Shown here in pieces: positions 3,323-28,383 of a stretch of DNA of 64,000 nt (its first letter is position 1; every line of letters starts with the position of its first letter). The notes under the pieces are model-generated. The model saw only the letters and a program-made list of their open reading frames with translations. It searched no databases and was not told where the DNA came from. A program made the position numbers and the translations under genes. Source of the DNA: Variovorax sp. J22G73 (GTDB taxonomy: Bacteria > Pseudomonadota > Gammaproteobacteria > Burkholderiales > Burkholderiaceae_C); NCBI RefSeq assembly GCF_030317035.1, contig NZ_JASZYK010000018.1:62001-126000 (forward strand). Reading direction: 5' to 3'.

Positions 3323-4540
3323 TCAGTCGGCCTGGCGGCGCAGGAAGGCCGGGATCTCGAAGTCGTCCATGCCGCCCGAGGACAGCGCATCGACCTTGGC
3401 AGCGGCCATCGTGCGGTTGGTGCGCCACACGCTGGGCACGGCCATGCCGTCGTAGTTGGGCTGGCTGCCGTGGCCGCCGCTGCTGGCGTGGCCCATGCCA
3501 CCGAGCGTCGGCACGGTGAACGGGATGTTGTCGGTGCCGGTGCGGATCACTTCCAGCGTCGGTGCCTGGCGGCGCGCGTCGGCGCGCGACAGGCCCGTGG
3601 CCACCACGGTCACGCGCATTTCGTCGCCCAGTGTGTCGTCGTAGGCCGCGCCGTAGATCACGTGCGCGTCCGGCGAAGCGTAGGCGCGGATGGTGTTCAT
3701 CGCCAGCTTCGACTCGTTCAGCTTCAGCGAGCCCTTCGATGCCGTCACCAGCACCAGCACGCCCTTGGCGCCCGACAGGTCGATGCCTTCCAGCAGCGGG
3801 CAGGCCACGGCCTGCTCGGCGGCGATGCGCGCACGGTCGGGGCCCGCGGCCGCGGCCGTGCCCATCATGGCCTTGCCGGGTTCGCCCATCACGGTGCGCA
3901 CGTCTTCGAAGTCGACGTTCACGCCGCCGTACTCGTTGATGATTTCCGAGATGCCGCCCACGGCGTTCTTCAGCACGTCGTTGGCTTGCGCGAAGGCTTC
4001 GTCCTGCGTCACGTCTTCGCCCAGCACGTCGAGCAGCTTCTCGTTGAGCACGACGATCAGCGAGTCGACGTTGGCTTCGAGCTCGGTCAGGCCGGCGTCG
4101 GCGTTGGTCATGCGGCGGCCGCCTTCCCAGTCGAAGGGCTTGGTCACCACGCCCACGGTGAGGATGCCCATTTCCTTGGCCACGCGCGCGATCACGGGGG
4201 CCGCGCCGGTGCCGGTGCCGCCGCCCATGCCGGCGGTGATGAACAGCATGTGCGCGCCGTCGATGGCCGCGCGAATGTCGTCCACCGCGAGCTCGGCTGC
4301 TTCACGGCCCTTGTCGGGCTTGCTGCCGGCGCCCAGGCCGCTGGTGCCGAGCTGGATGATCTTGTGCGCGTTGCTGCGTTGCAGTGCCTGTGCGTCGGTG
4401 TTCGCGCAGACGAACTGAACGCCCTGCACGCCGCGCTCCATCATGTGGGCGACTGCATTGCCGCCGCCACCGCCGACACCGATCACCTTGATCTGCGTGC
4501 CCTGATTGAACTCTTCGACTTCGATCATTTCGATGGTCAT
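3323..4540 (-). CDS. ftsZ: Cell division protein FtsZ
   Basis: FtsZ is the tubulin-like GTPase that polymerises into the cytokinetic Z-ring. The product is 405 residues. It has the N-terminal nucleotide loop GVGGGGGNAV (residues 21-30), the tubulin signature GMGGGTGTG (about 104-112), and the T7 region with NVDFEDV. After a variable Gly/Ser-rich linker comes the conserved C-terminal peptide FEIPAFLRRQAD, which docks FtsA and ZipA. It lies 167 bases downstream of ftsA; that gap probably holds an extra ftsZ promoter. Everything expected is present. Confidence 0.98.
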   Translation of the reverse strand: MTIEMIEVEEFNQGTQIKVIGVGGGGGNAVAHMMERGVQGVQFVCANTDAQALQRSNAHKIIQLGTSGLGAGSKPDKGREAAELAVDDIRAAIDGAHMLFITAGMGGGTGTGAAPVIARVAKEMGILTVGVVTKPFDWEGGRRMTNADAGLTELEANVDSLIVVLNEKLLDVLGEDVTQDEAFAQANDVLKNAVGGISEIINEYGGVNVDFEDVRTVMGEPGKAMMGTAAAAGPDRARIAAEQAVACPLLEGIDLSGAKGVLVLVTASKGSLKLNESKLAMNTIRAYASPDAHVIYGAAYDDTLGDEMRVTVVATGLSRADARRQAPTLEVIRTGTDNIPFTVPTLGGMGHASSGGHGSQPNYDGMAVPSVWRTNRTMAAAKVDALSSGGMDDFEIPAFLRRQAD

Positions 4541-4707
4541 TTTTAACTCCTTGAATCTTGCAGTTGCCGTTATGTATCTGTGAATGTTCTTGTGCCTGAC
4601 GCGCTCAACGTTCGAGCGTCACGATGGTGGACCTGTGCGTCGCCATCGCTCGTTGAAATGCAAAGGGGGGCTGCCGCGTGCGAGCCAGAGTGGAGACTTG
4701 ATCATGG

Positions 4708-5937
4708 CTAGAAATTCCCCACAATGAAGTCCTTGAAACGTCCGAATGCAGTCTTTACCGACCCATTCTTCTGTGCCACCTTGAAGCCGCGCATGCGTGC
4801 GAAGCGAGCCTCCTCGAGAAGGCCCATGACTGTAGCGGCGCGAGGCTGCGCGACCATGTCGGACAACGCGCTGGAATACTTCGGAATGCCTCGGCGCACG
4901 GGCTTCAGGAAGATGTCTTCACCGAGCTCGACCATGCCCGGCATCACCGCGCTGCCGCCCGTGAGCACCACGCCCGAGGACAGCACTTCTTCATAGCCCG
5001 ACTCGCGCACCACCTGCTGCACGAGCGAGAAGATTTCCTCGATGCGCGGCTCGATCACGCCGGCCAGCGCCTGCTTGCTCAGCATGCGCGGGCCGCGGTC
5101 GCCGAGGCCCGGCACCTCGACCTGCGACTCGGGGTCGGCCAGCAGCTGCTTGGCATAGCCGTGCTCGACCTTGATGTCTTCCGCGTCCTTGGTCGGCGTG
5201 CGCAGCGCCATCGCGATGTCGCTCGTGATGAGGTCGCCCGCGATCGGGATCACGGCCGTGTGGCGGATCGCGCCGTTGGTGAAGATGGCCACGTCGGTGG
5301 TGCCCGCGCCGATGTCCACCAGCACCACGCCCAGCTCGCGCTCGTCCTCGGTCAGCACCGCCTGGCTGGAGGCCAGCGGGTTGAGCATCAGCTGGTCGAC
5401 TTCCAGGCCGCAGCGGCGCACGCACTTGATGATGTTCTCGGCCGCGCTCTGCGCGCCGGTCACGATGTGCACCTTGGCTTCCAGGCGCATGCCGCTCATG
5501 CCGATCGGCTCCTTCACGTCCTGGCCGTCGATCACGAACTCCTGCGGCTCCACCAGCAGCAGGCGCTGGTCGCTGGAGATGTTGATGGCGCGCGCCGTCT
5601 CCACCACGCGGGCCACGTCGGCGGGCGTGACTTCCTTGTCCTTCACCGCCACCATGCCGCTGGAGTTGATGCCGCGGATGTGGCTGCCGGTGATGCCCGT
5701 GTACACGCGGCTGATCTTGCAGTCGGCCATCAGCTCGGCCTCCTTCAAGGCCTGCTGGATGCTCTGCACCGTGGCGTCGATGTTCACCACCACGCCGCGC
5801 TTGAGCCCGTTGCTCGGCGCGATGCCGAGGCCGGCCAGCTTGAGCTCGCCGCCGGGCAGCACCTCGGCCACCACCACCATGACCTTGGCGGTGCCGATGT
5901 CGAGTCCTACGACCAGGTCTTTGTATTCTTTGGGCAT
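4708..5937 (-). CDS. ftsA: Cell division protein FtsA
   Basis: FtsA is an actin-like ATPase that anchors FtsZ filaments to the inner membrane. The 409-residue start at ATG 5937 (MPKEYKDLVVGLDIGTAK) is chosen because GAGGA precedes it at normal spacing; an upstream in-frame extension looks non-coding. The actin-type phosphate loops are visible as GLDIGTAKV near the N-terminus and VDIGAGTTDV in the middle, and the adenosine motif as VLTGGSAVMPG. The C-terminus ends in an amphipathic membrane-targeting segment (FGRFKDFIVGNF). The gene begins 28 bases after the ftsQ stop. Confidence 0.97.
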   Translation of the reverse strand: MPKEYKDLVVGLDIGTAKVMVVVAEVLPGGELKLAGLGIAPSNGLKRGVVVNIDATVQSIQQALKEAELMADCKISRVYTGITGSHIRGINSSGMVAVKDKEVTPADVARVVETARAINISSDQRLLLVEPQEFVIDGQDVKEPIGMSGMRLEAKVHIVTGAQSAAENIIKCVRRCGLEVDQLMLNPLASSQAVLTEDERELGVVLVDIGAGTTDVAIFTNGAIRHTAVIPIAGDLITSDIAMALRTPTKDAEDIKVEHGYAKQLLADPESQVEVPGLGDRGPRMLSKQALAGVIEPRIEEIFSLVQQVVRESGYEEVLSSGVVLTGGSAVMPGMVELGEDIFLKPVRRGIPKYSSALSDMVAQPRAATVMGLLEEARFARMRGFKVAQKNGSVKTAFGRFKDFIVGNF

Positions 5938-5965
5938 TGATATGTCCTCGATTCCTCGGTGTTCG

Positions 5966-6754
5966 CTACTTGATTTTTCTTGGGGTCTCGGGCGAGACCG
6001 TGGTGACGCCGCGCAGCCGCAGGGCATACGCGTCGTTGTGGCGCAGATCGGCGCCTTCGACATCGGCCATCGAGCGGCGGTACTGGGCCGAGACCTGGGT
6101 CACGGTCTTCAGGAACCGCTGCAACCGGGCCGTCACTTCCTCGCTCTGGCCGCGGCCGAGTTCGATTTCCGCGCCGCTGTCCAGCACCACCTTCCAGCTG
6201 CCCCGGCTCGACAGCGTGAGCTCGTCGATGGCCAGGTCGTAGGGCTGGAACTGCGGCTGCAGCACGCGGTACATGCCCAGCACCTGCCCGGCCTGCTCGA
6301 TCGGGCCGTCCAGGCGCGGCAGGTTGTCGTCCACCTCCGCCACGTTGGCCTCGAACACATCGCCGAAACCGTTGATGAGCTTGGAGCCCGCGTCGTCGCC
6401 CCAGGTGGCCACCGGTACCTGCTCGGTCAGCGTGACGTGCAGCTTGTTCGGAAACTCGCGCCGCACCACCGCGCTGCGCACCCACGGCACCGACTCGAAC
6501 GCCGCGCGGGCGCGCGACAGGTCGATGGTGAAGAAGTTGCCGTTCAGCTGCGGCGCCACGTTGGCGCGCAGGGTCACCGCGTTGTTGTGCGTGACCTCGC
6601 CGTCGACCTTGATGCCGGCCAGCGGGAAGAAAGGTTGGCGCAGCACCCACCAGGCACCCGCCGCCAGCAGCATGAGCGTGACCATCACGAAGGCGATGTT
6701 CGCGACGATGTTCATGAGCTTGACGTCGAAGGGTGCGGGAATGCTGTCGGCCAT
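5966..6754 (-). CDS. ftsQ: Cell division protein FtsQ
   Basis: FtsQ is a bitopic inner-membrane protein that links early and late divisome proteins through FtsB and FtsL. The 262-residue product has a short cytoplasmic N-terminus, one transmembrane helix (about residues 17-37, VANIAFVMVTLMLLAAGAWW), and a POTRA-type domain starting FFPLAGIKVDGEVTHNN. A periplasmic beta domain follows. The ATG at 6754 is two bases from the ddl stop, so the two are translated together. The end of the protein (TPRKIK) is basic. Identification rests on domain layout and gene order. Confidence 0.94.
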   Translation of the reverse strand: MADSIPAPFDVKLMNIVANIAFVMVTLMLLAAGAWWVLRQPFFPLAGIKVDGEVTHNNAVTLRANVAPQLNGNFFTIDLSRARAAFESVPWVRSAVVRREFPNKLHVTLTEQVPVATWGDDAGSKLINGFGDVFEANVAEVDDNLPRLDGPIEQAGQVLGMYRVLQPQFQPYDLAIDELTLSSRGSWKVVLDSGAEIELGRGQSEEVTARLQRFLKTVTQVSAQYRRSMADVEGADLRHNDAYALRLRGVTTVSPETPRKIK

Positions 6755-9218: not shown

Positions 9219-10279
9219 TTGGCAAGCTCCTCGCAAGCGCGGACGACCGCCTCGACGGCTTCGGTCTTCTGCAGGGTCTTGGCCTTGGCGGCCTTGTCGA
9301 TCAGCGCGGTGCGCCCGGTTTTCTGTAGCAAATCAGCCAGCAATTCAGGAGTGAGGTCGGCCTGCTGCACCAGCCATCCGCCGCCCGCGTCCACAAGGAA
9401 GCGCGCGTTGGTGGTCTGGTGGTCGTCGACCGCCGAAGGGAAAGGCACGAACAGCGCTGCTGCGCCGACGGCCGCGATTTCTGTGACGGTGCTGGCACCG
9501 GCGCGCGCGACGATGAAGTCGGCGTCCGCATAGGCCTGCGCCGTGTCTTCGATGAAGGGCGTGAGCTCGCCCTCGACGCCGGCGGCCGCGTAGTTGGCGC
9601 GCAGCTCGTCGATCTGCTTGGCGCCGCTCTGGTGCAGCACCTGCGGGCGGGCTTCGCTCGCGATGCGGGCCAGCGCCTGCGGCACCACGGTGTTGAGGCC
9701 GCGCGCCCCCAGGCTGCCGCCGACCACCAGCAACTTCAGCGGACCGGTGCGGCCCGCGAACCGCGCGGCCGGCTCGGGCTGCGAGGTGAAGGCCGCGCGC
9801 AGCGGGTTGCCCACCCATTGGGCCTTCTTCAGCACGTTGGGAAAGGCCGTGAACACGCGGTCGGCCACGCCGGCCAGCACCTTGTTGGCCAGGCCGGCGA
9901 CCGAGTTCTGCTCGTGCAGCACCAGCGGCTTGCCCATGAGCACGCCCATCATTCCGCCCGGAAAGGTGATGTAGCCGCCCAGGCCCACCAGCACGTCGGG
10001 CTTCACGCGGCGCACCACGCCCAGGCTCTGCCAGAACGCGCGCAGCAGCTTCAGCGGCAGCAGGAACAGCGTGAGCGGGCCCTTGCCGCGCACGCCGCCG
10101 AACTGCACCGGCTCGAAGGCGAAGCCGCGCGGGGGCACCAGTTTTTCTTCCATGCTGCCGGGCGCGCCCAGCCAGTGCACCCGCCAGCCGCGCTCGCGCA
10201 GGGCCTCGGCCACGGCCAGTCCGGGGAAGATGTGGCCGCCCGTGCCGCCCGCCATGACGAGTGCAGTCTTGCCGGTCAT
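9215..10279 (-). CDS. murG: UDP-GlcNAc:lipid I N-acetylglucosaminyltransferase MurG
   Basis: MurG is a peripheral GT-B glycosyltransferase that makes lipid II from lipid I on the inner face of the cytoplasmic membrane. The 354-residue protein begins [20 protein letters not shown], containing the glycine-rich acceptor loop. Further motifs are [12 protein letters not shown] and, in the C-terminal domain, [12 protein letters not shown] and the donor-site signature [12 protein letters not shown]. The start overlaps the ftsW stop (ATGA at 10276-10279) and its stop overlaps the murC start. Confidence 0.97.
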
Positions 10280-11574
10280 ACGCGGCCTCCCCGCATCAGC
10301 ACCCGGTTCTCGTAGTCGATGCGCAGCACGATGGCCAGCGCCACCAGGTTCATCAGGATGGCCGAGCCGCCGAAGCTCATCAGCGGCAGCGTCAGGCCCT
10401 TGGTCGGCAGCGCGCCCAGGTTCACGCCCATGTTGATGAAGGTCTGGAAGCCGAGCCACACGCCCACGCCCTGGGCCACGAGGCCGGAGAACACGCGGTC
10501 GAGCGCGATGGCCTGGCGGCCGATGTGCATGATGCGGCGTGTGAGCCAGAGGAACATGCCGATGATCAGCAGCACGCCGACCAGGCCGAACTCCTCGCCG
10601 ATCACCGCGAGCAGGAAGTCGGTGTGCGCCTCGGGCAGCCAGTGCAGCTTTTCCACGCTGCCGCCCAGGCCCACGCCGAACACCTCGCCACGCCCGATGG
10701 CGATCAGCGAGTGCGACAGCTGGTAGCCCTTGCCCAGCGCATGCTCCTCGCTCCACGGATCGAGGTACGCGAAGATGCGCTCGCGCCGCCACGGGCTGCT
10801 CGCGACGATGCTGCCGAAGGCCACCACCACCAGCGCGGCAATCACGAAGAACATGCGCGCGTTCACGCCGCCCAGGAACAGGATGCCCATGGCGATCACG
10901 GCAATCACCATGAACGCGCCCATGTCGGGCTCGGCCATCACCAGCATGCCGACCACCACCACCGCGATGCCCATCGGCAGCACGGCGCGGAAGAAGCGCT
11001 CCTTGATCTCCATCTTGCGCACCATGTAGCTGGCGGCGTACAGCACCATCGCCAGCTTGGCCAGCTCCGACGGCTGGAAGCGCATGAAGCCCATCGGCAG
11101 CCAGCGGCGCGCGCCGTTCACGTTGATGCCGATGTGCGGAATGAGCACGGCCACCAGCAGCAGCAGCGAGGCGACGAAGAGCCAGGGCGCGGCGCGCTCC
11201 CAGGTCTTCATGGGAATCTGGAAGGTCAGCAGCGCGGCGACGAAGGCGAACGCCACCGAGGCCGCATGCCGCGTAAGGAAGTACGACGCGCTGTAGCCGG
11301 CGCGCGCGAAGCGCGGGTTGTCGGGCAGCGCGATGGAGGCCGAATACACCATGATCAGGCCCCAGGTCAGCAGCGCGACCGTGACCCACACCAGCGCCTG
11401 GTCGAAGCCCAGCACGCGCATGGGCGTGGCCTTGGTCTGCGCGATGCCGGCGCCGCCCAGCCGCACGGGCAGGTGCACGGGCAGCGCGTCGATGCCGCTG
11501 CGGGCGCGCCTGAACCAGCCGCTGAAGCGGCCGGTGCGGGTGTTGGACGTGGCGCCTGCGGTTGCGGGGTTCAA
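10276..11574 (-). CDS. ftsW: SEDS peptidoglycan glycosyltransferase FtsW
   Basis: FtsW polymerises lipid II at the septum together with FtsI. The 432-residue product has about ten hydrophobic helices. SEDS signatures include [21 protein letters not shown], the catalytic-site region MAEPDMGAF, and the C-terminal stretch [13 protein letters not shown]. An N-terminal basic segment of about 50 residues precedes the first helix. The start at 11574 overlaps the murD stop by ATGA, and the end overlaps murG, so it sits in a translationally coupled block. Confidence 0.96.
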
Positions 11575-13790
11575 AGTGGTTCCTCCGTCGAAGCATCGGA
11601 CGCGGGGTCTTCCACCAGCCCGCGCGGGCTGTCTTCCCAGGCCTGCACGGCCTCGCGGAACACCTCGGCGCGGTGGGCGTAGTCCTTGAACATGTCGAAG
11701 CTCGCGCAGGCCGGCGACAGCAGCACGGCGTCACCCGGGTTGGCGCGCTTGCCGGCCAGCGTCACGGCCTCGTGCATCGACGCAGCGTGCAGCAGCGAGA
11801 CGCCGGTGGACGCCAGCGCGGCCTCGATGATCGGCGCGTCGCGGCCGATGAGCACCACGGCGCGCGCGTACTGGCGCACCGGCTCGGCCAGCGGCTCGAA
11901 ATCCTGTCCCTTGCCTTCGCCGCCGAGGATGACGACCACGCGGCGCTCTTCGCCCAGGCCCACGAGCGCGGCCACGGTGGCGCCCACGTTGGTGCCCTTG
12001 CTGTCGTCGAAGAACTCGACCTCGTCCACGATGGCGACGGGCTCCACGCGGTGCGGCTCGCCGCGGTACTCGCGCAGGCCATAGAGCATCGGGCCCAGCG
12101 CGCAGTCGGCGGCCGTGGCGAGCGCCAGCGCGGCCAGCGCGTTCAGCGCGTTGTGGCGGCCGCGGATGCGCAGCGCGTCGGCGGGCATCAGGCGCTGCAG
12201 GAAAATTTCTTCTTCCACCACCGCGCCGCGCTTGCGCTTCTGCGTTTCGTCGGCTTCCAGCGCGCGCACCAGCCAGGTCATGCCGTTGACGCGCTCGATG
12301 CCGTAGTCGCCCGGGCGCAGCGGCATCGCCGAGCCGAAGGTGACGTGCGTGCGGATCTGCGGGCGCTGCAGCTTCACGCGCACCGGCGCGGGCAGCATGG
12401 CCATCACGCCCTCGTCGTCGCGGTTCAGCACCATGAGGCCGCGCGCGCCGAAGATGCGCGCCTTGGCCGCGGCGTAGCCCTTCATGTCGCCGTGCCAGTC
12501 GAGGTGGTCCTGCGTGAGGTTGAGCACGGTGGCGGCGGTGGGCTCGAAGCCCTGCACGCCGTCCAGCTGGAAGCTGGAGAGCTCCAGCACCCACACGTCG
12601 GGCAGCGTGTCGGCGTCGATGTGCGCGCTGAGCGTGTCCAGCAGCGTCGGGCCGATGTTGCCGGCCACGGCCACGGTCTTGCCCGCGCGCTCGACCAGCT
12701 GGCCGGTGAGCGAGGTGACGGTGGTCTTGCCGTTGGTGCCGGTGATGGCGAGCACGGCCGGCTTGTAGCCCTTGGGCGCTTCGGGCTCGACGGGCGGTGC
12801 CAGCTCGAGCTGCGGCGTTTCCTCTTCCACGGCGGCCGAGGCTGGGTTGGAGGCGGCGAGTTCGGCGATCTTGGCGACGAACTCGGCGGCCTCCCTGGCG
12901 GCGGTGGGGACGTAGGGCTTGCCGGTGGTGGGCAGGCGGGAAACGGTGGCGGGTGCAGTTGAAGCAGCGGGGGCTTCGAGAGCGTCCGGTGCTTCCAGTG
13001 CTTCGGATTCGGGGCTGCTGGAATCGGCGGCTTCGGATGCTGCAGCGGTGGCCTCTGTTGCGGAGGCTTCCGTCGCAGTGACTTCCGATGCCGGCGTTTC
13101 GGCGGCTGCGTCTTGCGGCACGGCTTCAGGCTCTGCGGCCACGGGCGCGTCAGGTGCCTCGGTCGGCGCAGGCACGGCCACGCTGATCGATGGATCGCGC
13201 GGCATGGCCTCGGCCATCGCGGGCACGGTCGGTTCGGGTTGTGCTTCGGCGGTTTCGGTCGTCGGCTCTGGTTCTGCGGCCTGGGCAGCTTCGACCTCTG
13301 CAACCTCTTCGACAGCTTCGACGGCTGCCGCTTCGAGCGGCAGTTCGGCCTGTGCTTCAGCTTGCTCGGCTTCGCCGACGACTTCAGGCACGGCTTCCAA
13401 CGCAGGCTCGGCGTCGGCCTCGGCTTCGACCACCGGCACATCGACGGTCTGCAGATCGAGCAGCGCGCGCGCGAACAGGTCCAGCTCGCCGCCGACCGGC
13501 AGCCCCATGGCGCGTGCCGCATCGGCCACCGGCGCGATGGTCTCGGGCGACAGGCCCGGCGAGCGGTAAACCGCGCGAATCGGCGTGCCTTCGACCAGCG
13601 CGGCCGAGAACGGCCCGCCGACAAAAACCACATCGGGCAGCTCGGCCTTCAGCGTGGCCAGCTGCGCCGGCGCCTCGCGCGTATCCGCCACGGTCACGAC
13701 CGCGCCGTGGCGCGCGCACCAGCGCGCCATCGCCAGCCCGGACGCGCCGAGGCCGAGGATGAGAACGGGGAGGTCTTGAAGGTGCCGCAT
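11571..13790 (-). CDS. murD: UDP-MurNAc-L-alanine--D-glutamate ligase MurD with giant inter-domain insertion
   Basis: MurD adds D-Glu to UDP-MurNAc-L-Ala. The core is intact: the N-terminal domain starts [17 protein letters not shown], the P-loop is [11 protein letters not shown] (residues 349-359), and the central and C-terminal domains carry [22 protein letters not shown] and [15 protein letters not shown]. Family members are usually about 440-500 residues, but this one is 739. The excess lies between the N-terminal domain (ending about residue 113, [14 protein letters not shown]) and the P-loop domain (restarting about 344, KPAVLAITG). It is a low-complexity stretch rich in Ala, Glu, Pro and Thr. 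The insertion keeps the frame, so the enzyme is presumably functional. Confidence 0.95.
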
Positions 13791-13797
13791 GTTTTTA

Positions 13798-14976
13798 TTA
13801 CCGCAGCTTCAGCGTCGACAGGCCCACGAGGCACAGCAGCATCGTGATGATCCAGAAGCGCACCACGACCTGCGTCTCGCGCCAGCCGCTCTTCTCGAAG
13901 TGATGGTGCAGCGGCGCCATCTTGAGCACGCGGCGGCCTTCGCCGTAGCGCTTCTTGGTGTACTTGAAGTACATCACCTGCGCCATCACCGAGATCGCCT
14001 CGACCACGAAGATGCCGCCCATGATGAAGAACACGATTTCCTGGCGCACGATGACCGCGATGGTGCCCAGCGCGCCGCCCAGCGCCAGCGCGCCCACGTC
14101 GCCCATGAAGACCTGCGCCGGGTGCGTGTTGAACCACAGGAAGGCCAGGCCCGCGCCGGCCATGGCCGAGCAGAACACCAGCAGCTCACCCGAGCCCGGG
14201 ATGTTGGGGAACAGCAGGTACTTGGAGTACACCGCGCTGCCCGTCACATAGGCGAACACGCCCAGCGCCGAGCCCACCATCACCACCGGCATGATCGCCA
14301 GGCCGTCCAGCCCGTCGGTGAGGTTCACCGCGTTGCTCGCGCCCACGATCACCAGGTACGTGAGGATCACGAAGCCGATGCCGCCCAGCGGGTAGCTCAC
14401 TTCCTTGAAGAAGGGCACCAGCAGGTTGATCTTGGGCGGAAAGTCGAGGTCGAACCCCGACTGCACCCAGGCGAAGAACAGCTGCAGCACGCGCCAGTTG
14501 GAGCTTTCAGAAATGCTGAACAGCAGGTAGAAGCCCGCCAGCAGGCCCACCACCGACTGCCAGAAATACTTCTCGCGCGAGCGCATGCCTTCGGGGTCCT
14601 TGCGGACCACCTTGCGCCAGTCGTCGACCCAGCCGATGGCGCCGAAGCCCATGGTGACCCACAGCACGATCCACACGAACCGGTTCGAAATATCGAACCA
14701 CAGCAGCGTGGCGAAGGCGATGGCGAACAGCACCAGCACGCCGCCCATGGTGGGCGTGCCGCTCTTGGTCAGGTGCGTTTCCATGCCGTAGCCGCGCACC
14801 GGCTGGCCGATCTTGAGCGCGGCGAGCCGGCGGATGACGAAGGGGCCGGCCACCAGGCCGACCACGAGCGCGGTCACCGCGGCCATCAGCGCGCGGAAGG
14901 TGAGGTACTGGAAGACGCGCAGGAACCCGAATTCGGGCGACAGCGTCTGCAGCCATTGGGCGAGAGTCAGCAGCAT
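13798..14976 (-). CDS. mraY: Phospho-N-acetylmuramoyl-pentapeptide-transferase MraY
   Basis: MraY transfers phospho-MurNAc-pentapeptide to undecaprenyl phosphate, making lipid I. It is a polytopic inner-membrane enzyme. The 392-residue product has about ten transmembrane helices and the family motifs GTPTMGG, the acidic loop [20 protein letters not shown] and [12 protein letters not shown], followed by [12 protein letters not shown], the conserved His-rich loop. It lies 7 bases upstream of the murD start and 15 bases after murF. Confidence 0.97.
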
Positions 14977-14991: not shown

Positions 14992-16437
14992 TCATGCGTC
15001 ATGACCGGCCTCCTTTTGTTGTTGTGCCTCGATGGCCTGCACGATGCGCTCCATCTTCATGAAGCGGGATCCCTTGACCAGCACGCTGCCGACCTGCGGC
15101 AGGCGCGCGAGCACGGCCGCGCCCAGCGCGTCGAACTCGTCGAAATGTCGTCCGTCCGCACCGCCCTGGAAGGCGGTGGCGGCATGCGCCGTGGCGGCGC
15201 CCAGCGTGTAGACCGACTCGATGCCGCGTTGCCGGGCCCAGGCGCCGACCTCGGCGTGGAACTCCGGCGAGCGGTTCCCCACCTCGCCCATTTCGCCGAG
15301 CACCAGCAGGCGCGGCGCCGGCAGGGCGGCGAGCACGTCGATGGCGGCGATCACGGAATCGGGGTTGGCGTTGTAGCTGTCGTCCACCAGCGTGAGCGCG
15401 TGGCCGCCGGCCAGCACCACCTCGCTGGCGCGCGAGCGGCCCTTGACCGGCACGAAAGCGTCCAGGCCCGCGGCAATGGTTTCCAGCGACACGCCGGCCG
15501 CCAGCGCGCAGGCGGTGGCCGCCAGCGCGTTCACCACGTTGTGGCGCCCGGCGATGTGCAGCCGGGTGGCGAAGGCGCCCAGCGGCGTGCGGATGCGCAC
15601 GGCCCACGCGCCCTGCGCCCATTCGGCGCTCTCGAGCGAGATGTCGGCGTCCTGCGCTTCGCCGAACGTCATGCAGCGGCGCGAACCGCCGGCGCGCGCC
15701 ATGTCGGTCCACAGCGCGGTGAAGGTGTCGCCGTACGGGAACACGGCCGTGCCGTCGTCGGGCAGCGCCGCGAACACGGCGGCGTTTTCCACGGCCACCG
15801 CCTCGACGCTGGCCATGAACTCCTGGTGCTCGCGCTGCGCGTTGTTCACCAGCGCGATGGTCGGGCGCGAGATGGCGGCCAGCCGCGCAATTTCGCCCGG
15901 ATGGTTCATGCCCAGCTCGAGCACCGCGCGGCGGTGCTCCGCGCGCAGGCGCAGCAGCGTGAGCGGCACGCCGATCTCGTTGTTGAAGTTGCCGGCCGTG
16001 GCCAGCGCACGTTCGGCCCGTTCAGCACGTTCGGCGGCGGACGCGAACAGCACCGCCGCGATCATCTGCGTGACCGTGGTCTTGCCATTGCTGCCGGTGA
16101 CGGCAATGAGCGGCAGCGTGAACTGCGCGCGCCAGCCGGCGCCGAGCGCGCCGAGCGCGGCCAGCGAATCGGGCACCTCGAGCCCGGCCAGGCCGGCGGC
16201 TTCGAGGCCATGGTGCGCAATGGCGGCCACGGCGCCCTGCGCCTTCGCGTCGGCGAGGAATTCGTTGGCGTCGAAGCGCTCGCCCTTGAGCGCGACGAAC
16301 AGGTCGCCGCTCGCGAGCGTGCGCGTGTCGGTGTGCACGCGGGCGATGACGGTCGCGCCGTCGCCGACCAGGCGCGACCCCGGAATCCATTGCTGCACCT
16401 GGGCCAGCGTGAGGTTGAGCGGCGTGGTGTCGGTCAT
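14992..16437 (-). CDS. murF: UDP-MurNAc-tripeptide--D-Ala-D-Ala ligase MurF
   Basis: MurF adds the D-Ala-D-Ala dipeptide, finishing the cytoplasmic pentapeptide precursor. The product has 481 residues. The N-terminal substrate domain contains DTRTLASGDLFVALKGERFD, the P-loop is VTGSNGKTTVTQM, and later motifs are LELGMNHPGEIARL and DDSYNANPDSV. The start ATG (16437) overlaps the murE stop. The downstream gap to mraY is 15 bases. All Mur-ligase hallmarks are present. Confidence 0.97.
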   Translation of the reverse strand: MTDTTPLNLTLAQVQQWIPGSRLVGDGATVIARVHTDTRTLASGDLFVALKGERFDANEFLADAKAQGAVAAIAHHGLEAAGLAGLEVPDSLAALGALGAGWRAQFTLPLIAVTGSNGKTTVTQMIAAVLFASAAERAERAERALATAGNFNNEIGVPLTLLRLRAEHRRAVLELGMNHPGEIARLAAISRPTIALVNNAQREHQEFMASVEAVAVENAAVFAALPDDGTAVFPYGDTFTALWTDMARAGGSRRCMTFGEAQDADISLESAEWAQGAWAVRIRTPLGAFATRLHIAGRHNVVNALAATACALAAGVSLETIAAGLDAFVPVKGRSRASEVVLAGGHALTLVDDSYNANPDSVIAAIDVLAALPAPRLLVLGEMGEVGNRSPEFHAEVGAWARQRGIESVYTLGAATAHAATAFQGGADGRHFDEFDALGAAVLARLPQVGSVLVKGSRFMKMERIVQAIEAQQQKEAGHDA

Positions 16438-23737: not shown

Positions 23738-25447
23738 TTAGTTTTTCCTAACCGCCACCGTGGCGTGATCGGCAATGCCTACCAGGTTGAACAGCGCGGC
23801 AATCAGGCGATGCGCATCCACGAACTGCACGCGCTCGCCGTTGGCGTCGCGCGCCCGCACCCAGCTCAGCAGCGTGCCGGCGGCAGCCAGGTCCATGCGC
23901 AGCAGCGCCGCGCACGAGATGACCGGCGCGGTGGTGTGGCGCAGGTCGTGGTCCAGCCGCTGCCAGTTCGACAGCGACTCGCCCCGCAGGTCGCCCGCCA
24001 GCGCGGCAAAGCCGCTGTCGGTGGACGGAAAGCTCTCCGAATCGCCGCCGACCGACAGCAGCGACCACACCGAGCTGTGCCGGTTCACCGCTGGCGCGGC
24101 CAGCGCGGTGCATTCGCCGCGCGGGTCCTGCCACGAAGGTGGCGACACCTCGTAGGTGATGCAGTAATTCAGCGCCACCAGCTCGAAGTCGTCGGGCAGG
24201 TGCATGAGCCGCAGCGCGGCCATGTGCAGCTGCCACCACACATCCTCGGTACTGCGATCGTTGTTGGGAGAGGCCTCGGCCAGCACGGCCAGCAGCTGGG
24301 CCGAGCCCATGAAGCGCAGTTGCACCGGCGAGTCGGACCAGTGGTTGAACAGCACGCGCAACGGCGCGGCGGCCTCGAGCTCGATGCCGCCCAGGCTGCG
24401 CCAGTCGAGCGTCCACACCGAGCCCGCCTTCGACAGCGCGCGCGTGAGCGCCACCAGCCCCTCGCGCGCCAGGCGCGGCGGGCTGGCCCAGTCGGCGTGG
24501 GCGTCGCCCTCGGCGGCGGCACCTGCCGCCTCTTCGCTGGCGGTCACGGCCTTGACGCTGCGGGCCAGCTCCTCGAGCGAGACCCAGTCGGGGCCCATGC
24601 GCCGCATGCGCTGGGCGTAGCGCATGCGGGCGGCCGCGAACTTGGCGGCGGCACCCGTGGCGCGGTAGAGATCGAACAAGGCACGCCAGCGGTCGTCGTC
24701 GCGCTCGGCCATCGAGGCGTGCTGGCCGTTCTCGGACTCGGGCGGCGCGCTCTCGGAGGCCAGCGCCTGCAGCAGGATAGCTTCCGCGCCGGTGTCGTCG
24801 CCGTGCGCGAAGCGGATCACCGCTTCTTCCAGGGCGCCGTCGTGCGAGAGGTGCGAAGAGGTCAGCGGCGTGCTGGCGGCGGCCGGTGTCGTGTCAGGCG
24901 ATGAAACGGGTGCCGACACAGGCGCATCGGCTGGTCCGTGGGCCGCATGCGCAACGGTTTGAACCGAAGGCTGGGCCGCCGGCTGCCCTTCGGCCGCCTC
25001 GTCGTCGAGCACGGGCGGCAGCGTTTCGGCACCGGCGTCCGGCGGCGGGGTGGACAGCGCTTCGCCGTTCGGCCCGCGGCCCTTCCACCACTGCTGGGAC
25101 ATCTGCTCTTCGATCTCGTCGATCTTCTTGAGCGTGAGCGCGCGGCCTTCCTGCTTGCCGGAAGAACTGTTGACGTTGAACGACGACGGCGTCACCGTGC
25201 CGTCGAAGGCGTGCGCGGCGGCTTCGCGCTGGCGCAGCTTGCGCAGCATGTCGAACTCGCGCCGGCGCACGAAGTCGTTGCGCTGGCGCCGCTCGATCAT
25301 TTCCTTCAGCATCTCGCGGCTGTAGGTCTGGTCGGGCAGCGAGGAATCGGACGCGGCCGGCGCGTCGAGCTCCGACCAATCCTTCAGGGGATTGCGAACA
25401 AACTTGGCCACCTTCGAAAAAAGGCGGCCCGATTCTTCCTTGGCCAT
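23738..25447 (-). CDS. STAS-like domain protein with long disordered middle region
   Basis: The 569-residue product has a charged N-terminus ([21 protein letters not shown]), an Arg/Glu-rich helical part (about 45-85) and a low-complexity Pro/Ala/Ser linker (about 130-210). A helical region and a C-terminal domain (about 330-569) follow. The C-terminal end ([23 protein letters not shown]) resembles a STAS/anti-anti-sigma fold, and [17 protein letters not shown] could be a second such copy. No signal peptide or catalytic motif is seen. It is co-directional with hslVU but starts some 2 kb before it, with a 58-base gap to hslV. The STAS assignment is from pattern recognition; the function is unknown. 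Confidence 0.6.
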
Positions 25448-26497: not shown

Positions 26498-26862
26498 TGG
26501 GTGTCTCCTCCCATGGAGACCCTGCGGCTTTCAGGCCGCGCGATGTCTCCGTTGTCGGGGTGCCCGCCAGTGACGAACCCCGGGGTTATACCCCCGAAAG
26601 CCCGCCAGAAACGTGCGGCGCCCCGTGCCGGAAGTCACATCTTGTCCATGGGGACGAGGAGTGGCTGCCGGAACAGGCGCGCGATTGTATAGAGAACTCG
26701 GCAGCGCGGGCGATGTGCGTGCGCCGCGGCCGGCGCCGCCGGCAACTCCGTTAGCATCGCCCGGCGTTGTCGAGGGGGCAACGCGGGTCCGCGCCCTGTC
26801 CTGCTTTGTCCGTACGGCGGCGGGGGCCTATCCGATCATTCGACACAAGAGAGAGAAAAACC
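26498..26862. promoter_or_regulatory. Divergent intergenic region between dksA and the DUF945 gene
   Basis: These 365 bases hold no credible gene. On the minus strand TACAAT at 26684-26689 is a good -10 match for a dksA promoter, which would give a leader of about 180 bases. Near 26578-26600 a GC-rich stretch (CCCCGGGGTTATACCCC) can fold and lies inside that leader. For the plus strand, AGAGAGAGAAAAACC precedes the TTG start of the next gene. No known riboswitch is recognised. Confidence 0.35.
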
Positions 26863-28383
26863 TTGAGCAATAAAGCAGTTCTGGGAGTGGGTGCATTGGC
26901 CGCGGCCATCGCGGTGGCCTACGGCGGCAGCACCTGGTACGCCGGGTCGCAGATCAAGTCGCGCTACGACACCGCGCTGGACGAGTTGCCGAAGCAGACC
27001 GCGCTGGTGCGCGTGACCGACCGCCAATACGAGCGCGGCTTCTTCGGCGCCGTGAGCACCGTGACCCTGGAGATCGGCTGCGCGCCGGACGCCACGGCCG
27101 CGGCCACGCCTGCCGCGCCGACCCCGCCCGCCGAGGGTGAAGAAGCCGAAGCCGACGAGGAAGCCGAAGCGCAGGCAGACGCCACGCCGCCCAAGCCGCT
27201 GCGCTTCACCATCCGCGACACCATCCACCACGGCCCGATCGCCGGCGGCTCGCTGGCCGCGGCCACCATCGACAGCGAACTGGTGCTCGACGCCAAGACC
27301 CAGGCCGACGCGAAGAAGCTCTTCGGCGATGCCAAGCCCCTGAGCGCGCGCACCCAGGTCGGCTTCGGCGGCGCCTTCACCACCGACATGACCGTGGCGC
27401 CGGCCAAGCTCACCGAAGCCGGCAAGGGCCAGTTCGCCTGGCAGGGCGCGCAGATGCGCATGGACGTGAACGCCGCGCGCACCCAGGTGCGCTACGACCT
27501 GGCCATGCCCGGCCTGGACTTCAGCGACGCCCGCACCGGCACCACCCTGAAGATGGGCAAGCTCACCGCCAAAGCCGACATGGACAGCAGCGCCGGCTGG
27601 TTCCTGGCCACCGGCAAGACCGAGGGCAAGCTCGACACGCTGGAGCTCGTCGTGAAGAAGACCGGCGGCCCGCTGGGCGCCGCCGCCGTGCCGGCCGACA
27701 CCCCGCCCAAGTTGGTGACCACCGTGCTGCTGCAGGGCCTGGACATGCTCGGCGAAGCCACCATCAAGGACGGTCTCTATGCCTCCAGCGGCACCGTCAA
27801 GGGCAACGGCACCATCGGCGCGACCAAGATCGACAAGTTCGAGCTGACCAGCAGCGCGCGGCGCATCCAGGCCGCCGGCTACAAGAAGCTGGCCGACGCG
27901 TGGATGCAGTCCAGCGCCGTCAACGGCTGCGGCAAGGGCGGCAGCAAGGCATCGCAGGCCGCGATGCAGGCGCTGGCCGACCAGCTCGCGCCCGACCTGA
28001 AGGCCATGGCCAAGTTCAGCCCCGAGGCCGGCGTCGACAAGATGGTCGTCGAGATCGACGGCAAGCGCGGTGAAATCAGCTACATGGCCGGCATGGCCGG
28101 CGTGACCGACGAAGACCTGCAACTGCCCGGCACCGCCCTGCTCATGAAGCGCGGCGCGCTCAAGGCCAACGCCCGCCTGCCCATGAAGTGGCTCGAGAAG
28201 CTCGCCGAAACCGGCGCCGAGAGCGGCCAGACGCCCCCGCCCGAAATGGTGGCGGGCCTGGTCGAGCAAGGCGAGGAAAAGGGCTTCGTGAAGCGCGAAG
28301 GCGACGACGTGACCGCCCAGGTCGAGTACAGCGACGGCAGCCTGAAGATCAACGGCAAGCCGATGGGCGCGCCGGGCCGGTAA
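26863..28383 (+). CDS. DUF945 (YdgA-like) membrane-anchored protein
   Basis: The product has 506 residues from TTG 26863, chosen because AGAGAGAG lies just upstream and the sequence then reads SNKAVLGVGALAAAIAVAYGG, a classic signal anchor. After it, STWYAGSQIKSRYD and DRQYERGFFGAVSTVTLEI are typical of the DUF945 family, whose members are periplasmic and of unclear role. An Ala/Glu/Pro-rich insert (about residues 68-100) interrupts the N-terminal half. The C-terminal half contains repeated beta-rich segments. A strong terminator follows directly. Confidence 0.8.
   Translation: MSNKAVLGVGALAAAIAVAYGGSTWYAGSQIKSRYDTALDELPKQTALVRVTDRQYERGFFGAVSTVTLEIGCAPDATAAATPAAPTPPAEGEEAEADEEAEAQADATPPKPLRFTIRDTIHHGPIAGGSLAAATIDSELVLDAKTQADAKKLFGDAKPLSARTQVGFGGAFTTDMTVAPAKLTEAGKGQFAWQGAQMRMDVNAARTQVRYDLAMPGLDFSDARTGTTLKMGKLTAKADMDSSAGWFLATGKTEGKLDTLELVVKKTGGPLGAAAVPADTPPKLVTTVLLQGLDMLGEATIKDGLYASSGTVKGNGTIGATKIDKFELTSSARRIQAAGYKKLADAWMQSSAVNGCGKGGSKASQAAMQALADQLAPDLKAMAKFSPEAGVDKMVVEIDGKRGEISYMAGMAGVTDEDLQLPGTALLMKRGALKANARLPMKWLEKLAETGAESGQTPPPEMVAGLVEQGEEKGFVKREGDDVTAQVEYSDGSLKINGKPMGAPGR

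Follow-up and report, generated by a model that had tools for sequence, protein, structure and literature searches.

The murD gene in a 64,000-nucleotide stretch of the Variovorax sp. J22G73 genome (hereafter the window) raises the question of why an essential enzyme should carry a long extra sequence between two of its domains. An initial annotation had described an in-frame, stop-free insertion of about 230 residues (12762-13451, residues 114-343) between intact Mur-ligase motifs, and had proposed either a flexible linker that scaffolds other Mur or divisome proteins or a neutrally expanding low-complexity stretch. The three domains, the P-loop and the active-site motifs that characterize MurD (TIGR01087; structures from Pseudomonas aeruginosa and Escherichia coli) were common to the Variovorax enzyme. 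The 739-residue protein passed the NCBIfam murD model with 350 bits against a cut-off of 211.95, and three Pfam domains were located at residues 9-99, 349-558 and 580-695. The P-loop, lysine and DDSKGTN motifs, which we take to have their usual catalytic roles, were present, and their conservation was checked over 54 rows. A carbamoylated Lys198 is described for E. coli MurD (PMC3060825). A single murD was detected in the 8.39 Mb genome, the one further match being weak (31% over 117 residues), so D-glutamate ligase activity is presumed for this copy and the insert-bearing protein is presumably a working ligase. The gene was flanked by frames recognized from their translations as ftsW (10276-11574), mraY (13798-14976) and murF (14992-16437). 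The closest MurD core in the tree set belonged to Variovorax sp. OK212 (94% over 407 columns). The features of the gene are listed in Table 1.

Table 1 Features of the insert-bearing murD gene, with positions in the window.
Feature	Residues	Position	Strand	Basis
murD, insert-bearing UDP-N-acetylmuramoyl-L-alanine:D-glutamate ligase		11571-13790	minus	ATG at 13790, stop at 11571, 739 aa
N-terminal UDP-substrate-binding domain	1-107	13470-13790	minus	Pfam MurD-like_N, residues 9-99
Site A insert, acidic, A/E/P-rich, probably disordered	114-341	12768-13451	minus	template alignment, relatives, composition; disorder inferred
Short semi-conserved motif (13 letters)	192-204	13179-13217	minus	alignment, dN/dS
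Conserved amphipathic helix-like segment (21 residues)	293-313	12852-12914	minus	alignment, dN/dS, hydrophobic moment
Exit segment, acidic then hydrophobic/proline-rich, into the P-loop strand	314-341	12768-12851	minus	alignment, dN/dS
P-loop TGTNGKTT, intact	350-357	12720-12743	minus	conservation alignment, position check
Central and C-terminal ligase domains	345-716	11643-12758	minus	Pfam domains, conservation, dN/dS
Site B loop (14 letters), empty in this MurD	388-401	12588-12629	minus	alignment to insert-bearing genera

Alignment to P. aeruginosa MurD (8dp2) placed residue 109 at template position 106 and residue 343 at position 108, so that a single template residue corresponds to 233 residues here; in two alignments the P. 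aeruginosa enzyme had no insert at this junction (site A), in contrast to the long insert of the Variovorax enzyme. Compared with insert-less relatives, the excess amounted to 223 residues. The size, the open frame and the intact flanking motifs reported in the initial annotation were thus borne out, the last by both position and conservation, and its residue counts for positions 121-280 (50 Ala, 33 Glu, no Lys) were exact; the same region also contained 21 Pro. The insert had a net charge of -43 with 3 Arg and 0 stops, whereas base-shuffled insert DNA gave a net charge of +25 (sd 7), approximately 35 Arg and 3.9 stops, a composition far from chance. Order-promoting residues made up 0.158 of the insert versus 0.317 of the MurD core; judged by composition, the insert is probably disordered. 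Acidic A/E/P-rich composition is common in bacterial linkers, and acidity alone is therefore no proof of function. Only weak short repeats were found in the insert, which discounts a tandem-repeat origin as a visible cause, although old slippage may have been involved. Synonymous divergence was also raised in the insert, perhaps partly through misalignment.

To follow the distribution of the insert, 80 named murD loci (the best 80 of 396) were collected, insert lengths being read by script patterns in 77 of them; two further loci were added separately, of which L072 had an insert and L080 had none. A family sample of one genome from each of 59 other genera yielded 58 MurD proteins (G043 gave a weak match only, and locus L124 ends at a contig end). 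The measured set comprised 138 MurD proteins including that of the window, and 81 of them exceeded the insert-less length at site A by more than 10 residues. The possibility that this region is ordinary sequence in all relatives was dispelled by the alignment, as 53 of the 58 other genera had no excess above 10 residues; of the remaining five, three exceeded 30 residues (L083, L097 and L137). The excess ranged from 0 to 259 residues among the 77 relatives: Rhodoferax sp. OV413 had 35 residues, two Polaromonas had 93 and 112, six Xenophilus spanned 48-168 and the Variovorax loci 52-259. In a tree of the core columns, all 79 inserts of at least 33 residues (33-259, graded in length) fell into one group of 80 rows, whose 80th member was an insert-less Ramlibacter (SH-aLRT 93, not starred), and two small inserts of 14-15 residues occurred elsewhere. 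Outside the family, reading of the match spans revealed no site A excess above 73 residues among the model-spanning matches; five distant MurDs (G061, G094, G102, G126 and G259) had short insertions only, estimated by eye at some 30-40 residues, and a sixth (G111) was cut by a contig end. The insert is therefore lineage-specific. Among the titles and abstract openings listed by a literature search, with subscription papers mostly outside its reach, none described a MurD insert. No growth of this kind was seen in the neighbouring proteins of the operon, whose lengths differed by 0 residues for MraY (77/77), by -7 to +4 for FtsW (75 loci) and by -16 to +16 for MurF (77 loci).

That the insert is missing from the mature protein, through a frameshift error, a second start or removal, is highly improbable. 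One locus, the murD of Variovorax sp. E3 (L021, about 3980-6200), did have a frameshift within the insert, which is either a sequencing error or a broken copy. Against this, 77 of the 80 loci held one open frame by script, L072 and L080 were open too, and the N-terminal domain was conserved upstream in the same frame (dN/dS 0.17-0.21), which disfavours an internal start. The insert is thus likely to be translated in cells.

Acidity was a constant property of the inserts: at site A, each of the 77 distinct inserts of at least 30 residues was net negative (median -0.198 per residue), and length correlated with net charge (r -0.94), a value that is descriptive since the rows share ancestry. A second constant was found in the longest inserts. 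When the 36 longest were picked by length alone from 78 rows, all 36 contained a form of the segment at residues 293-313. Its dN/dS came to 0.160 when all 630 pairs were used and to 0.146 for the 123 close pairs, compared with 0.215 and 0.153 for the MurD core, 0.392 and 0.476 (all pairs) or 0.322 and 0.395 (close pairs) for the two flanking linkers, and 0.754 and 0.833 for the MurD C-terminal tail, with the reservation that the pairs share ancestry and that the segment offers only about 46 nonsynonymous sites per pair. Choosing the rows by length avoided circularity, and rows chosen by the motif gave much the same values. Over all pairs, the least-changed 21-residue windows of the insert lay on this segment; over close pairs, the lowest began at residues 300-305 and overlapped it. 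The match to the core is partly due to a higher synonymous change in the segment (pS 0.452 versus 0.304), and its pN of 0.103 compares with 0.078 for the median core window, 76% of core windows having changed as little or less. Weaker constraint was observed over residues 191-203 (dN/dS 0.21 for close pairs to 0.37 for all pairs) and in the exit segment (0.16 to 0.36). Modelled as a helix, the segment reached a hydrophobic moment of 0.577, the highest in the insert of the window, a value attained by a fraction of 0.0024 of shuffles there and by about 0.012 in four relatives. Residues 293-313, if helical, would be amphipathic, with a conserved face of A, F, V, I and L. Low-complexity flanks that drift while the segment between them is conserved are the pattern of a linker with an embedded docking motif.

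With a slightly relaxed pattern, the segment was recovered in 39 of the 138 proteins. The smallest insert bearing it had 98 residues; it occurred in no shorter insert of this set and was lacking from five site A inserts of at least 98 residues, indicating that docking by this segment is not needed group-wide. An origin of the segment in one clade was not rejected (AU p 0.386 for 39 rows; 0.267 for the 37 rows of a narrower pattern), and the free tree required three changes. A genome search for a second copy returned none, the one other match (E 0.59) being taken as chance; homology therefore gives no pointer to a partner.

Furthermore, a second acidic insert was present in sister genera. In 16 of the 58 other-genus MurDs, an insert of 18-122 residues stood immediately ahead of the VWVLELSS strand of the P-loop domain (site B). 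Another 50 site B proteins (49 loci from a similarity search plus one other, five coming from genomes of the sample above) were picked by similarity to a site B protein, so that they carry no information on frequency; their inserts were all of about 50 residues or more and, together with the 16, gave 61 distinct inserts. All 61 were net negative (median -0.207 per residue; length versus charge r -0.79). The 293-313 segment was found in 0 of the 50, but 16 of them shared LLD[EA]xPLPI, in which PLPI and a proline-rich exit come after a helix-like segment ending in LLD[EA]. The helix-like part had a dN/dS of 0.22-0.30 and PLPIKPPPP..EHLP of 0.24-0.30, compared with 0.50-0.53 for the remaining insert and 0.29-0.35 for the ligase core behind it in the same 16 genes; because these rows were picked by motif, the value is somewhat lowered, and only 7 pairs made up the closest bin. 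No MurD with inserts at both sites was seen among the 138 and the further 50, four of the latter, which the script had measured wrongly or overlooked, being checked by eye, an exclusion that rests on few independent events because the kinds of insert follow the tree. Site B inserts required at least two changes on the tree. The data are best read as an acidic arm that evolved at least twice in MurD.

Both junctions also tolerate added sequence elsewhere. MurDs of other families in the order contained short, in-frame, repeat-like pieces, which occupied site A in L141 and L142 and site B in L143, and similar pieces lay inside the site B inserts of L192 and L222; L224, from another order of the class, had a unit of about 17 residues tandemly duplicated at site A. 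These pieces presumably resemble REP-type or other dispersed intergenic repeats. Such unrelated small insertions at both sites, the wide variation in insert length and the lower GC3 of the insert (12768-13451; 0.694, against 0.935 for the remainder of murD) would all be expected if the insert were a neutral expansion at a tolerant surface junction, bounded by solubility and the open frame, with a segment that is young or trivially conserved. This account is nevertheless unlikely: the adjacent linker has diverged in the same genes in which the segment stays core-like, so the conservation of the segment is not explained by youth alone; every distinct insert at either site is acidic (77/77 and 61/61); and 16 of the 50 additional site B proteins have a helix-like part under core-like constraint. 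The insert is probably not purely neutral. Each alternative of the initial annotation was therefore partly right: the free drift of length (0-259 residues) and of sequence (linker dN/dS 0.32-0.48) fits expansion, while the kept acidic density and the core-like dN/dS of the segment are not predicted by plain neutrality and make a scaffolding role plausible.

A constrained helix could also act within MurD itself. The helix and the exit segment might pack on the enzyme, for example near the inter-domain cleft, and tune its opening and closing or the release of substrate. The position of the insert is compatible with such a role, since in E. coli MurD the N-terminal domain (residues 1-93) and the central domain (from residue 94) enclose a cleft that holds the substrate (PMC12480691), which makes an effect on domain motion a real rival. 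The strands that follow sites A and B belong to one and the same central domain. From the MurD fold, we assume the two sites to be close in space. A common ending, acidic and then hydrophobic-proline, is suggested for the two kinds of insert: of the 77 site A inserts, 57 had the best place for a profile built from 49 of the 61 site B inserts no more than 25 residues from the insert end, against an expectation of 23.2. However, only 16 of the 77 reached p<0.05 (about 4 expected), the insert of the window gave p 0.84, and the MurD of insert-less genera does without the element. On balance, an intramolecular part is quite unlikely.

The reading that we favour, at a probability of about one half, is that a working MurD bears an acidic, probably disordered docking arm, which evolved at least twice. 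At site A, the arm would be anchored to the substrate-binding domain at one end and to the P-loop domain at the other. It probably started as a short acidic stretch at an insertion-tolerant junction and lengthened by small in-frame additions, and in the longest forms an amphipathic segment is kept by purifying selection. The acidic linker would keep the arm soluble and mobile, and the helix would bind a putative partner, the most plausible candidates being the MurG/MraY/MreB platform and other cell-wall enzymes of the cytoplasm. MurG and MreB are candidates because Mur ligases are reported to bind them in other bacteria (PMC6420597). A bolder version of this proposal, namely that sister groups independently built an acidic, helix-bearing arm into MurD at two junctions that were never both filled among the proteins covered here, as a selected docking or condensing element, is less likely than not. 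If it holds, MurD would be a scaffold member of the cell-wall assembly line in these bacteria. MurD also offers a pair of independent insertions, similar in charge and make-up, within one essential enzyme.

The linker of FtsZ drifts fast, is disordered and adjoins a conserved peptide. The MurD arm resembles it (FtsZ C-terminal linker, PMC12607630) as a probably disordered, fast-drifting stretch that adjoins a conserved, putatively binding segment, both proteins belonging to the machinery of cell-wall synthesis and division. The FtsZ linker joins core to tail, whereas the MurD arm lies within an enzyme and is closed at either end, and the likeness drawn here is one of arrangement. Mur enzymes are also physically joined or held together by the Bordetella MurE-MurF fusion and the MurG scaffold; in that fusion two enzymes are linked through about 20 residues, whereas Variovorax MurD is one enzyme with a long arm and no second enzyme (PMC6420597). 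How far the cytoplasmic Mur enzymes act as an organised complex is a question raised in the same source, and a MurD with a removable conserved segment, together with relatives that lack it, offers a direct test. The Variovorax protein is a variant form of a known enzyme with a striking parallel in sister genera, and a docking function may be proposed for its arm.

A scan of 444 kb including the window (about 1/20 of the genome), with genes called by a simple script, detected five acidic A/E/P-rich stretches among 349 gene calls; that of MurD was the longest with 261 residues, and the next had 91. A genome-wide habit of such inserts was not seen in the 444 kb scanned. Within the window, residues 82-172 of a DUF945 protein (26767-28383, plus strand) formed an acidic, A/E/P-rich stretch of 91 residues, and a STAS_2 protein (23738-25447, minus strand) had a 63-residue A/P-rich stretch.
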